This document shows, piece after piece, positions 22,310 through 29,753 of a stretch of DNA of 58,214 nt. Position 1 is the stretch's first letter, and each line of letters begins with the position of its first letter. Under the pieces are notes generated by a model, which did not search any database, was not told where the DNA came from, and worked only from the letters and a program-made list of their open reading frames with translations. Both the position numbers and the translations under genes were made by a program. Source of the DNA: Flavobacteriales bacterium (GTDB taxonomy: Bacteria; Bacteroidota; Bacteroidia; Flavobacteriales_D; Sanyastnellaceae); the NCBI GenBank assembly GCA_027491215.1, contig JAIXWP010000097.1:1-58214 (forward strand), read 5' to 3'.

Positions 22310-23674
22310 ATGACAAAAACTCAAGACATCCATCACCTCTATTCTCGAGCAGGCTTCGGATTACATCCACAGTATTGGCAAAACAGAGAAGCCTTATCAG
22401 CGGAGCAGCTCGTAGATCAATTATTTGAAGACAGCAAGAAGTTCACTTCCCTTCAGCGATTTGAAGATATTCGAGAAAGAAAGGAAGATGTTGGTGGATT
22501 AAAAATCTTGAAAATGATATTGAAAAGCCGAAAAGATTTACAAGAATTAAATCTTTCATGGCTTGATCACATGAGTACTACTGGTGCTCAATTGCGCGAA
22601 AAGATGACTTTCTTTTGGCATAATCATTTTGCCACGCAAGTACCTTTCCCAGTGCTGATGCAAGCACAAAATAATATGCTCAGAACGCATGCGCTTGGAA
22701 ATTTCAAAACGCTTCTCGAACAAATAGCTATGGATCCTGCAATGATTATTTATTTAAATAATCAGCAGAATAAGAAAAACGCACCAAACGAAAACTTCGC
22801 TCGCGAACTCATGGAACTCTTCACAATGGGAAGAGGAAATTATACAGAACAAGACATCAAAGAAAGCGCTAGAGCATTCACGGGATGGCATGTTGGTAAA
22901 GATGGCTATTTCAAATTCGAAGAAAAGCAACACGACTATGGACAAAAAACTTTCTTCGGTCAAACAGGAAATTGGAATGGACAAGATATCATTCGAATCA
23001 TTTTAGAGCAGCCTACGACAGCTGTTTTTATTTCAAAAAAGCTCTATCGACATTTCATACATCCCAACGTTGATCAAACTTTTGTAAACGAGATGGCACA
23101 AGTATTTCGAGTGAACAATTACGAAATCGAGCCTCTATTAAAGTTCATTTTTACATCAAAGCATTTTTATCGAAATGACAAAAAGGGAAGTTTAATAAAA
23201 TCACCTGTTGAGCTCATTGTATCATACAAACGTCTGTTTGGATTGCGTTTGAACAAGCCCGAAAACATGATCAAGCTTCAACGTGGATTAGGACAACTTC
23301 TCTTCTTCCCTCCTAATGTGGCTGGATGGCCGGGCAATCAGGCATGGATAGATAGCACATCTTTGCTCTTACGAATGAACCTTCCCTTTATTTTTCTTGG
23401 AAGAGATAATTTTGATTTAAAGGAAAAAGAACTTCCAGAAAGTGCATTGATAAAAAACAAAGAGAAGAAACCATTCTTAGGCACACTTCATTTTGAGCCA
23501 ATGCAAAAGAGTATTCCAGCAAACATTCAATCGCGCGAGGAACAGTATCAATATGTCTTTGGTTTATTGATGTCGCATACAGACCTTGTGGCTCCACCTT
23601 ACGATGCCCGCTGGACAAAATTCAGCGATGTTGTCACCGCCATTCTTTCACTTCCAGAATATCAATTGCACTAA
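22310..23674 (+). CDS. DUF1800 family protein
   Basis: The 454-residue protein is a clear DUF1800 member: HLYSRAGFGLHPQYW at the start, then MTFFWHNHFATQ, ARELMELFTMGRGNYTEQD and the WPGNQAWID segment near residue 343. These proteins nearly always sit next to a DUF1501 gene, as here with 2 nt between the genes. Their function is unknown; a redox or sulfatase-linked exported complex has been proposed for the pair. I see no signal peptide, so export may depend on the Tat-carrying partner. Co-transcription with DUF2797 upstream is likely. Confidence 0.93.
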   Translation: MTKTQDIHHLYSRAGFGLHPQYWQNREALSAEQLVDQLFEDSKKFTSLQRFEDIRERKEDVGGLKILKMILKSRKDLQELNLSWLDHMSTTGAQLREKMTFFWHNHFATQVPFPVLMQAQNNMLRTHALGNFKTLLEQIAMDPAMIIYLNNQQNKKNAPNENFARELMELFTMGRGNYTEQDIKESARAFTGWHVGKDGYFKFEEKQHDYGQKTFFGQTGNWNGQDIIRIILEQPTTAVFISKKLYRHFIHPNVDQTFVNEMAQVFRVNNYEIEPLLKFIFTSKHFYRNDKKGSLIKSPVELIVSYKRLFGLRLNKPENMIKLQRGLGQLLFFPPNVAGWPGNQAWIDSTSLLLRMNLPFIFLGRDNFDLKEKELPESALIKNKEKKPFLGTLHFEPMQKSIPANIQSREEQYQYVFGLLMSHTDLVAPPYDARWTKFSDVVTAILSLPEYQLH

Positions 23675-23676
23675 TT

Positions 23677-24849
23677 ATGAAAAGAAGAGATTTCATTAAG
23701 ACATCTGCTCTTGCCTCAGGAGCCTTGTTGCTTCCAGACATTTTACGTGCATCCGCGAACAATTTGCTTGCGGTGGAAGATAAAATTCTGATTGTAATTC
23801 AATGGAGCGGTGGAAATGATGGCTTAAACACTGTTATTCCGATAAAGAATGACCTCTATTACCAATACCGTCAAAAAATTGGCATTCGGGCCTCAGACGC
23901 ATTGGTTCTTAATACAGATATGGGACTTCATCCAAAGCTTTTGGCGTTGCGAGAAATGTTTGATCAAGGAGAGCTCGCTATTTTGCAAAATGTAGGATAT
24001 CCCGAACCCGACCGCAGTCATTTCCGCTCGATGGATATATGGCAAAGTGCTAGCGCGAGTGATGTATATTGGAGTGACGGCTGGATCGGTAGAATGCTCG
24101 ATGCTGGTTTTCTTCCTCAAGACGCGTTGGAAATTGATGATAGCTTGAGCCTTGCATTAAAGGGTAAGAACAAAAAAGGATTGGCTATTCGCGATATTCA
24201 GCAGGCACATCAATTAGCAGCTATTGGAAATCACATGTGTGATGGGGCGCACGATCATGACAATGTATCCTATTTGCGCACCACCTTGCGTGAGGCAACG
24301 AGTGGCATTGATTATATATACAGTCAGTCAAATAAGAAGACGAGTACCGCAGCTTATCCTTTAACAGAGTTTGGCCGACAAATGAAATCCACATCCGAGT
24401 TGATCATGTCTGGCTGTAAGACCAGAGTCTATTACCTGACATTGGGAGGATTTGACACGCATGCTGGTCAACCTGGAACACAAAATAGGCTATTTCAAGA
24501 GTATTCACAGGCCATTGGAGCACTGAAAAGTGACTTAAAGAAAGAAAATAGATGGAAAGATGTGGCGATTTTGACCTTTTCAGAGTTTGGCCGGAGAGTG
24601 AAGGAGAATGCTGGACGAGGGACAGATCATGGCACTGCTGGAGTTTCATTTGTGATGGGCGGAAGTATCAAAACACCAGGCCTGTATGGAGGAATGCCCA
24701 AATTGGATCAGTTGGTCGATGGAGATTTGGTTCATGAAATTGACTTTCGAAGAATGTACGCTACCCTATTAGATGATTGGATGGGGGTTAGCAGTGCTAA
24801 AATATTATCAGATAATTTTTTACGAATTCCTTTGTTTGTATCGAAATAA
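23677..24849 (+). CDS. DUF1501 protein with twin-arginine signal
   Basis: The 390-residue protein begins MKRRDFIKTSALASGALLLP, a Tat signal (RRDFIK), so it is exported folded. The remainder has the alkaline-phosphatase-like DUF1501 features: IVIQWSGGNDGLNTVIP near residue 40, HRSHF-type SHFRSMDIWQSAS near 112, GGFDTHAGQPG near 258 and TFSEFGRRVKENAGRGTDHG near 297. The last could ligate metal. It is the standard partner of DUF1800 upstream. The operon appears to end here; the RNA-binding gene's promoter begins 3 nt after its stop. Confidence 0.93.
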   Translation: MKRRDFIKTSALASGALLLPDILRASANNLLAVEDKILIVIQWSGGNDGLNTVIPIKNDLYYQYRQKIGIRASDALVLNTDMGLHPKLLALREMFDQGELAILQNVGYPEPDRSHFRSMDIWQSASASDVYWSDGWIGRMLDAGFLPQDALEIDDSLSLALKGKNKKGLAIRDIQQAHQLAAIGNHMCDGAHDHDNVSYLRTTLREATSGIDYIYSQSNKKTSTAAYPLTEFGRQMKSTSELIMSGCKTRVYYLTLGGFDTHAGQPGTQNRLFQEYSQAIGALKSDLKKENRWKDVAILTFSEFGRRVKENAGRGTDHGTAGVSFVMGGSIKTPGLYGGMPKLDQLVDGDLVHEIDFRRMYATLLDDWMGVSSAKILSDNFLRIPLFVSK

Positions 24850-24852
24850 GAT

Positions 24853-24860
24853 TATCTTTG
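24853..24860 (+). promoter_or_regulatory. -7 box (TATCTTTG) for the RRM gene
   Basis: TATCTTTG lies immediately after the DUF1501 stop and implies a leader of about 95 nt before ATG 24961. It is embedded in CTTTG-A-CAAAG, a short dyad. Confidence 0.55.
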
Positions 24861-24905
24861 ACAAAGCATATCAGTTTTCAACACGTTTTCTGTAGTTATG
24901 TGGTT

Positions 24906-24954
24906 AATGTTTGTTGGAGTATTAGATATGTAAACCAACAAACGTTTTTTTTTT
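24906..24954 (+). terminator. Terminator-like hairpin in the leader of the RRM gene
   Basis: AATGTTTGTTGG (24906-24917) pairs with CCAACAAACGTT (24935-24946), giving 12 pairs with one G-U around a 17-nt loop. It is followed by a run of ten T (24945-24954). Only AATCAC separates the T-run from ATG 24961. It may end DUF1501 transcription, but it also lies between the RRM gene's own -7 box and its start, as an attenuator would. Confidence 0.7.
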
Positions 24955-24960
24955 AATCAC

Positions 24961-25311
24961 ATGAACATTTTTGTTTCCGGGCTTAATTACAGCCTATCGA
25001 GCGAGGAGCTCACTGAAATTTTTTCACAGTATGGATCTGTTACATCTGCAAAGGTGATAATGGACAAAATGACCGGCCGTTCACGCGGATTCGGATTCGT
25101 TGAGATGTCTTCTGACGAAGAAGGTCGCAACGCAGTATCAGCGCTTGATCAAAGCGACGTTAAAGGAAGAAAGATCAACGTTAAAGAAGCGGAAGATCGT
25201 CCACAACGTAGCAATGATCGCCCACAACGCAGCAGCTTCGGCGGTGGCGGACGTGACGGTGGTCGTGATGGTTTCAAGCCTCGCTTCAACCGCGATAACA
25301 ACCGCTACTGA
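24961..25311 (+). CDS. RRM-type RNA-binding protein
   Basis: The 116-residue protein is a single RNA recognition motif (residues 1-80) plus a basic Gly/Arg tail. RNP2 is IFVSGL at residues 3-8, and RNP1 is RGFGFVEM near 43-50, both with the aromatic residues that stack on RNA. The tail (SSFGGGGRDGGRDGFKPRF) is typical of the small Rbp proteins of Bacteroidota and cyanobacteria, which bind single-stranded RNA and affect many transcripts. The gene has its own promoter and a terminator-like hairpin in its leader, which suggests self-control. A strong terminator follows at 25337-25367. Confidence 0.95.
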   Translation: MNIFVSGLNYSLSSEELTEIFSQYGSVTSAKVIMDKMTGRSRGFGFVEMSSDEEGRNAVSALDQSDVKGRKINVKEAEDRPQRSNDRPQRSSFGGGGRDGGRDGFKPRFNRDNNRY

Positions 25312-25336: not shown

Positions 25337-25367
25337 TGGGCTGTCCTTTGGGCAGCCCATTTTTTTT
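25337..25367 (+). terminator. Rho-independent terminator of the RRM gene
   Basis: TGGGCTGTCC pairs with GGGCAGCCCA around a TTT loop (ten pairs, one G-U) and is followed by eight T. A second perfect palindrome, GATAAAAATATTTTTATC, lies just before it, right after the stop codon. Confidence 0.88.
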
Positions 25368-29176: not shown

Positions 29177-29211
29177 AAGAGCCCTCCCAATTTCGGGAGG
29201 GCTCTTTTTTT
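29177..29211 (+). terminator. Rho-independent terminator of the DPP III gene
   Basis: AAGAGCCCTCCC and GGGAGGGCTCTT pair perfectly (12 bp, 6-nt loop) and end in a run of seven T. The last T is also the first base of the next gene's -7 box. Confidence 0.92.
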
Positions 29212-29218
29212 ATCTTTG
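29211..29218 (+). promoter_or_regulatory. -7 box (TATCTTTG) fused to the preceding T-tract
   Basis: TATCTTTG is an exact TAnnTTTG match that begins at the last T of the terminator and ends 4 nt before ATG 29223, predicting a leaderless transcript. Confidence 0.55.
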
Positions 29219-29222
29219 AATC

Positions 29223-29753
29223 ATGTCATCTACTACTCCATCTTCTGACTTGTTGTATTTCCTACAAAAAGGTCTTTCTAAAGTACAAGTGGACGAATTA
29301 GCAAGGCTCATTCGCGCTGATCGCAAAGCAATGAAGCAAATGGTAGAATATGCTACCATGTATGAAGACACAGTGGGTATGAAGGCTTCATGGATTATGG
29401 GCGCCGCATCGGTGCAAGAGAATAATTGCGCACACGCTCACCTTCCCCAAATCATTGATCGATTAGGCGCCGTGCAGACCATGGGCATCAAAAGAGAACT
29501 TATCAAAACAATGATGTTTTCGAATGTAATGGATTGCGAAAATTTAGGAACGCTTGTCGATACCTTATTTATGTTTCTGCGGTCCGCTAGCGAAGACATC
29601 AGCGTGAGTTATAATTCTATGAAGTTGATGAATAAGATTGTCAAACATATTCCAGAACTCAAAGAAGAATTCCATGACACCCTTTCGCATCAAATGGAAT
29701 ATAAATCTCCCACATGGCGTAAGTGCGCGCAGAAAATCACCAGAAAAAAATGA
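29223..29753 (+). CDS. HEAT/ARM-like helical repeat protein, hypothetical
   Basis: The 176-residue protein has no signal peptide and is nearly all alpha helix, with helix pairs of about 30-40 residues (ARLIRADRKAMKQMVEYATM, MKASWIMGAASVQENNCAHA, GIKRELIKTMMFSNVMDCEN, SYNSMKLMNKIVKHIPELKE), as in HEAT or ARM repeats. Such small proteins act as adaptors. I recognise no named family. The start is fixed by the -7 box 4 nt upstream. The convergent T9SS gene ends 8 nt away. Confidence 0.7.
   Translation: MSSTTPSSDLLYFLQKGLSKVQVDELARLIRADRKAMKQMVEYATMYEDTVGMKASWIMGAASVQENNCAHAHLPQIIDRLGAVQTMGIKRELIKTMMFSNVMDCENLGTLVDTLFMFLRSASEDISVSYNSMKLMNKIVKHIPELKEEFHDTLSHQMEYKSPTWRKCAQKITRKK

Follow-up and report, generated by a model that had tools for sequence, protein, structure and literature searches.

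Directly before the start codon of a gene for an RRM RNA-binding protein, contig JAIXWP010000097.1 of the Flavobacteriales bacterium assembly GCA_027491215.1 carries a hairpin followed by a run of ten T, and the question raised by this locus is what a terminator-like structure would do in such a position. The window analysed here is the whole 58,214-nt stretch of DNA that contains it. An initial annotation had taken the structure for a terminator-like attenuator in the leader of the RRM gene. That reading survives as far as the hairpin and the adjoining T-run go, and it gains a component that had been overlooked, a conserved upstream block (block 1) that competes for the left arm of the hairpin. 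We regard it as very probable that this is a real bistable regulatory leader and, leaving the effector aside, as probable that it works as a bistable attenuation/occlusion switch of the RRM gene. The region from ~24866 to 24960 would be a cis-regulatory leader with two exclusive folds. In the open, antiterminator form, block 1 (UUUCAACA) would pair with block 2; in the closed form, block 2 would pair with block 3 to give a hairpin beside the U-tract and the start codon, which would act as a terminator wherever the U-tract is long, the window included, and would also crowd the start region.

The leader hairpin and its association with the RRM gene

The core of the initial annotation can be read directly from the sequence: a TATCTTTG box lies upstream of a 12-pair hairpin with a 17-nt loop, and the ten T end 6 nt before the ATG at 24961 (Table 1). 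The stem includes one G-U and four G-C pairs, and 2 of the ten T sit within it, leaving 8 T directly after the 12 pairs, the arrangement of an intrinsic terminator. The + strand of the window has 3 stems of at least 10 pairs whose loop is at most 20 nt and whose next 8 bases include at least 7 T, the leader hairpin being one of them, while 40 dinucleotide shuffles of this strand gave none. In the other two + strand matches, 7-8 of the pairs are G-C and the loops measure 3 and 6 nt; one match on the - strand also has 4 G-C pairs, but a 3-nt loop. A general terminator scan with loops limited to 3-8 nt does not list the leader hairpin with its 17-nt loop, and no Rfam family matches in the window at gathering scores. 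The folding energy of the leader alone is unremarkable (z -1.54, with 16 of 200 shuffles folding as well), and the case for the element therefore rests on the T-run and on conservation.

An attenuator should lie between promoter and gene. The predicted promoter upstream, which we take to be of the Bacteroidota type, follows a pattern (TTTG-N17-21-TAnnTTTG) that the + strand of the window contains twice, and transcription would be expected to start near 24866. The TAnnTTTG box stands 102-121 nt before the ATG in nine measured leaders of the clade, and it is aligned upstream of the hairpin in all 15 leaders of the alignment described below, five rows from genus g9 being one base short.

Relatives of the RRM protein were found by protein search in 34 of 60 near genomes and in 35 of 114 family genomes (1e-20), and the leaders of the 22 best orthologues (E up to 4.3e-36) were compared. 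Fifteen carry the hairpin before the ATG: the window, G002, G018, G020, G022, two genomes of genus g8 and eight of genus g9. These genomes represent six genera of one Flavobacteriales family and keep the hairpin, the promoter box and their rough spacing, so that conservation next to orthologues, named beforehand as a point on which the attenuator could fail, was found. The alignment row of G020 is out of register in the stem, this genome forming its own, differently placed hairpin.

Because the upstream gene differs between the hairpin genomes, the hairpin appears to travel with the RRM gene. The window has a DUF1501 gene in this place and G002 a divergent gene that starts 187 nt away from the RRM ATG; in 12 of the 15 the neighbour is a same-strand gene with a DUF2797-like C-terminus (NVRSHAGY stretch), an assignment for which the Pfam check covered the window gene only; the neighbour in G020 was left unassigned. 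The pattern TGTTTGTTG...CAACAAAC occurs once in the window's own genome, where a search with the RRM protein also gives one match. A covariance model (E < 0.001) returns 15 leaders from the 114 family genomes, all from its own training set, and 14 of its training leaders from 249 order genomes, one per genome in both cases; with Infernal's stricter filters, only training leaders fall below E 0.001 in these two sets, and weaker matches above that level occur in G066, G062, G033, G125, G365 and G385. On this comparison the element goes with the RRM gene, and the covariance searches bring no independent members. The hairpin was not seen as a general feature of RRM genes in 110 class-wide RRM leaders, of which the last 75 nt were inspected by eye.

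Two predicted helices for one left arm

Column information in the alignment resolves three conserved blocks, UUUCAACA, UGUUUGUUGG and CCAACAAAC, between diverged stretches. Part of block 3 recurs in block 1, and block 2 is complementary to the two of them, so that 1:2 and 2:3 pairing would be exclusive alternatives of the kind that defines an attenuator. Across the alignment, 95.3% of 149 cells are paired for the ten pairs of block 2 with block 3, and sliding the register gives at most 55.7%; for block 1 with 24912-24919 the figures are 91.6% of 119 cells and at most 57.1%. Of random 8-mers drawn with leader composition, ~2% match the left arm no worse than block 1 does. Where block 1 varies, pairing is partly kept: four of its eight bases differ in G002, three of those four keep the pair and the two outermost pairs are lost, and in G077 one U-A is swapped for A-U and two pairs are lost. 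G022 keeps a U-G pair in the stem. A second conserved pyrimidine-rich stretch, GUUUUCU, is possibly a protein-binding site.

Predicted folding sets the two helices in competition. Folds were computed at equilibrium, without kinetics, and the decision point was defined as the leader stopped where the stem is just complete, at 20 C. At this point the left arm of ten leaders is paired to upstream RNA at 0.57, against 0.12 (standard deviation 0.065) in shuffles, and 0 of 100 shuffles reach that value; these ten leaders were picked in the first antiterminator test and then kept throughout. One leader per genus gives 0.71 against 0.12 (standard deviation 0.09), again with 0 of 100 shuffles reaching it, for a set picked after earlier folding results in which g9 was represented by the favourable G010; with the least favourable G077 in its place the six-genus mean, from the same table of values, is ~0.58. 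The effect persists in the whole leaders of the same ten genomes, both at 15 C (0.46 against 0.10, standard deviation 0.065) and at 37 C (0.35 against 0.08, standard deviation 0.055), with 0 of 100 shuffles reaching either value. For the window alone, pairing of the left arm to upstream RNA at the decision point is 0.63 against 0.04 in shuffles, 2 of 100 of which reach it.

With the stem only just made at 20 C, the window leader is predicted to adopt the antiterminator at 0.63-0.78 and the hairpin at 0.01-0.20, and it turns to the hairpin when the U-tract and the nucleotides up to the ATG become available. One further folding comparison of this type covered 8 of the 15 leaders. The expectation in the initial annotation that most transcripts should stop at the hairpin is not supported, since predicted folding favours the competing antiterminator when the stem is just made, and the hairpin in the completed window leader. 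In the truncated leaders of 11 of the 15 genomes, the left arm is expected to form at least 5 pairs with the region of block 1; values are lower in G009, G020, G028 and G077.

Several observations weigh against a switch of this kind. The hairpin stem contains no double compensatory change and its covariation score is reached by 500 of 500 shuffles, while the score of the antiterminator is reached by 194-220 of 500; covariation is significant in neither helix because the arms hardly vary. Four of the eight leaders of genus g9 (G074, G079, G078 and G077) favour the hairpin at the decision point, opposite to the remaining trend, and with the exception of G077 they change over to pairing with upstream RNA when the whole leader is folded at 15 C. 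At all four temperatures tried, equilibrium folding of the complete leader favours the hairpin in the window, in G077 (1.00) and in G002 (0.85-0.95). The truncated-leader test, which came first, was weak against 300 shuffles for most single leaders (ten-leader mean 8.0 pairs against 6.4, with 2 of 300 reaching it), and large effects appeared only in the later tests where the helices compete. All 15 leaders are related, and their shuffle counts are not to be read as probabilities. Seven of the 22 orthologues, all from genus g20 and 69-73% identical, are without the element; one of their leaders, L041, counted among these, has traces visible by eye (GTTCAACCA, ATTTGTTGTTTG and a short ATTTG/CAAAT stem). 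Finally, all seven leaders with only four T behind the stem belong to g9 (7 of 8 g9 genomes, UUUU), and the hairpin is still present there. In the models the balance between the two folds is close, as expected of a switch, and the default state varies from genome to genome, a hint that it is set by another factor.

We also weighed a temperature sensor, which is not claimed. In many leaders the antiterminator is strengthened by low temperature, yet the same would hold for any fold with a larger number of pairs, and neither the window nor G077 shifts.

Output of the proposed switch and rival explanations

In the 8 bases after the 10-pair stem, eight of the 15 leaders have 5-8 T and seven have 4 T. 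As the U-tract has shrunk to UUUU in nearly all g9 genomes, termination may not be the common output, and translation may be. The feature common to all 15 in the sequences compared is nearness to the start codon, the 10-pair stem ending 9-23 nt before the ATG. For the window we lean towards termination, and where the U-tract is short, as in g9, the closed form would probably act mainly on translation.

The same distances, the stem kept with only UUUU in 7 of the 15 leaders and the ability of the window fold to extend to the AUG would equally suit a switch that works on translation alone, with the hairpin covering the start region, the U-tract incidental and no regulated termination. We consider this unlikely: in five of the 15 leaders (window, G018, G020, G028 and G009), T makes up 7-8 of the 8 bases behind the stem, a textbook terminator layout, and in G022 and G002 the stem is separated from the ATG by 22-23 nt. 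The U-run may also have a role beyond termination. T-runs of at least 6 in the region -30 to -1 are found in 27 of 109 class-wide RRM leaders (from L128-L237), compared with 9 of 171 intergenic controls, whose background genes are open reading frames of at least 120 aa, not curated and some of them behind terminators, and with 0 of 27 GroES genes. A T8 also precedes the RRM genes of g6, g12 and g20, which lack the hairpin described here. This class-wide enrichment would fit a U-rich stretch that is itself the functional part, a site at which RRM proteins limit their own translation, with the hairpin as a lineage-specific addition. Such a reading is quite unlikely in our estimate, because it leaves block 1 unexplained, 7 of 8 g9 genomes keep the hairpin with only four U, and cold-shock genes are intermediate: runs of at least 6 occur in 3 of 29, not distinguishable from RRM genes (p 0.13), and runs of at least 5 in 5 of 29 against 46 of 109 (p 0.017). 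A usable start was available in 29 of 30 cold-shock and 27 of 30 GroES loci.

The remaining explanations assign the hairpin to other functions. The attenuated leader could itself be a small RNA of ~85 nt, a single-stranded 5' part with UUUCAACA followed by a terminator, bound by the RRM protein as the FopS small RNAs are by RbpB; its layout is the same as that in the FopS comparison, but the weak U-tract in g9, the pairing to block 2 that already explains block 1 and the lack of an Rfam match make this very unlikely. An ordinary terminator of the upstream DUF1800-DUF1501 genes that overlaps the RRM leader is highly improbable. The DUF1501 gene does stop at 24849, no further strong terminator ahead of the RRM gene appears in the scans, and at 29177-29206 another terminator likewise stands close to the ATG of the gene that follows it. 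Against it, the same hairpin is found behind DUF2797-like neighbours in 12 of the 15 genomes, it lies downstream of the predicted RRM promoter, and its 17-nt loop and 4 G-C pairs are unlike those of the other two + strand matches. The divergent neighbour in G002 rules this out as the sole role, and the origin as a shared DUF1501 terminator, which the initial annotation had offered as an alternative, is not borne out by the differing upstream genes, although read-through from DUF1501 in the window would still meet the hairpin. Attenuation by a leader peptide, in which a ribosome on the MFVG... frame blocks the hairpin, is exceedingly improbable. An ATG (MFV...) does lie within the left arm in 13 of 15 leaders, but the conservation of that arm is already explained by pairing, and no common codon run extends beyond it. 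This candidate was rejected as weak on account of starts missing in G020 and G077 and of frames that range from one of 4 codons in G028 to ones without a stop ahead of the main gene in G002 and G010.

Returning to the bistable leader, the likeliest control would be negative feedback, in which surplus RRM protein would occupy the single-stranded, U-rich 5' part (UUUCAACA...GUUUUCU) and so release block 2 for pairing in the hairpin, as other RNA-binding proteins attenuate their own genes. We judge it likeliest because of this analogy and because of the RbpB site on the rbpB mRNA; by the same analogy the RRM protein is put forward as effector only tentatively. It is a rather doubtful, if attractive, extension that the RRM protein runs its own gene through a bistable leader and that this RNA has shifted, inside a single family, between a stop to transcription (in the genera with a long U-tract) and a block of translation (in g9).

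Known systems and the surroundings of the locus

To our knowledge, the control of Bacteroides genes for RNA-binding proteins of the KH, RRM and cold-shock-domain kinds has been little studied. Leader control is reported for the cold-regulated rbp genes of cyanobacteria, which likewise encode single-RRM proteins. The layout described here is classical, and its novelty lies in an RNA without an Rfam match placed before a bacterial RRM gene; the open-licence literature searched yielded no leader attenuator of such a gene. In the Bacillus subtilis trp leader with TRAP (PMC3913778), as here, a leader between promoter and gene has a left arm common to two exclusive helices, and upstream binding could tip the choice to termination. 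The RRM leader differs in having a putative effector only, an RRM gene, an A/U-rich stem and a closed form that is also near the start codon. The B. subtilis L10(L12)4 leader (PMC4538822) shares a gene for an RNA-binding protein after the attenuator; autoregulation is reported there and is only a candidate here, and the protein is of the RRM fold, not ribosomal. Bacteroides RbpB with its FopS small RNAs (PMC11697453) is likewise a Bacteroidota RRM protein, and its own mRNA carries an RbpB site; the available account of it describes no leader attenuator, and the hairpin described here was not seen in the class-wide leaders above.

A survey of premature terminators found attenuators to be commoner before genes for RNA-binding proteins, at 14% versus ~5% of B. 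subtilis operons ('data not shown'), and called a switch combining a terminator with sequestration of the ribosome-binding site realistic, with no combined case yet shown as of 2010; its main text contains no word starting 'bacteroid' or 'flavobacter' (PMC2965389). Bacteroides are reported to be without Hfq, ProQ and CsrA and to have KH, RRM and cold-shock-domain proteins instead (PMC12119571). A conserved, once-per-genome leader switch before an RRM gene would offer a small, testable target and a possible natural RNA ligand. Genus g9, without a good U-tract, provides a natural test of whether a terminator hairpin can become a translation switch, and the U-rich stretch that precedes RRM start codons across the class gives another lead.

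Table 1. Features of the RRM leader and adjoining genes, in window coordinates.
Feature	Position	Strand	Details
DUF1501 gene upstream	23677-24849	+	stop 3 nt before the TATCTTTG box
Predicted Bacteroidota-type promoter	24831-24860	+	TTTG 24831-24834, 18-nt gap, TATCTTTG 24853-24860
Block 1, putative antiterminator strand	24876-24883	+	UUUCAACA; complementary to left arm; repeats CAACA of right arm
Second conserved pyrimidine-rich stretch	24885-24891	+	GUUUUCU; alignment columns 43-45 at 1.6-2.0 bits
Extended fold of window leader	24900-24960	+	GUGGUUAA (24900-24907) pairs with UUAAUCAC (24953-24960), pairing reaches AUG; window leader only
Left arm (block 2), common to both structures	24906-24917	+	AATGTTTGTTGG; as RNA AAUGUUUGUUGG
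Short upstream open reading frame MFVGVLDM	24907-24933	+	start inside left arm; longer frame starts at 24898
Loop, 17 nt, A/U-rich	24918-24934	+	AGTATTAGATATGTAAA; length and sequence vary among relatives
Right arm (block 3)	24935-24946	+	CCAACAAACGTT; as RNA CCAACAAACGUU
T10 run	24945-24954	+	terminator U-tract and/or U-rich element near start codon
RRM_1 protein gene, 116 aa	24961-25311	+	Pfam PF00076, E 2.3e-19
Terminator-like hairpin behind RRM gene	25337-25367	+	GC-rich, 3-nt loop, T8

The gene behind the leader encodes an RNA-binding protein, as that of an autoregulated leader would. Among solved structures it matches the P. gingivalis RNA-binding protein 7jly (6.3e-25), and it contains IFVSGL and RGFGFVEM, which we take to be RNP-like motifs. 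In the window a DUF1800-DUF1501 pair (22310-24849) lies between DUF2797 and the RRM gene; DUF2797-like genes adjoin the RRM gene in 12 of the 15 hairpin genomes. Further downstream, a terminator-like hairpin behind an M49 peptidase gene (29177-29223 region) runs into another TATCTTTG box. This box stands only 4 nt before the ATG at 29223, and the transcript of that gene may therefore be leaderless or begin within the frame.

Other hairpins were noted near RRM genes elsewhere. Seven genomes of genus g4 (L012, L013, L042-L046) have, by eye, another small hairpin with arms CCUAC/GUAGG, followed by a U/A-rich stretch and the ATG; in L043 the arms read CCUAU/AUAGG, an apparent compensatory change. 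In family f28, five RRM leaders (L138, L139, L146, L149 and L163) show, by eye, a hairpin close to where the 5' end is predicted; it has no U-tract, and its arms vary but match, for example CUUUUCC/GGAAAAG. A strong, unrelated terminator-like hairpin with T8 stands directly before the RRM ATG in L023 (G027, genus g7), where the last 70 nt fold at -18.5 kcal/mol. RRM matches are clustered in G055, with four on one contig (C6:1436-2540, L030), three on another (C236:54-880) and one weak match elsewhere. In G166, a cold-shock-domain gene directly precedes a same-strand RRM gene, 27 nt apart (L309 109-894).
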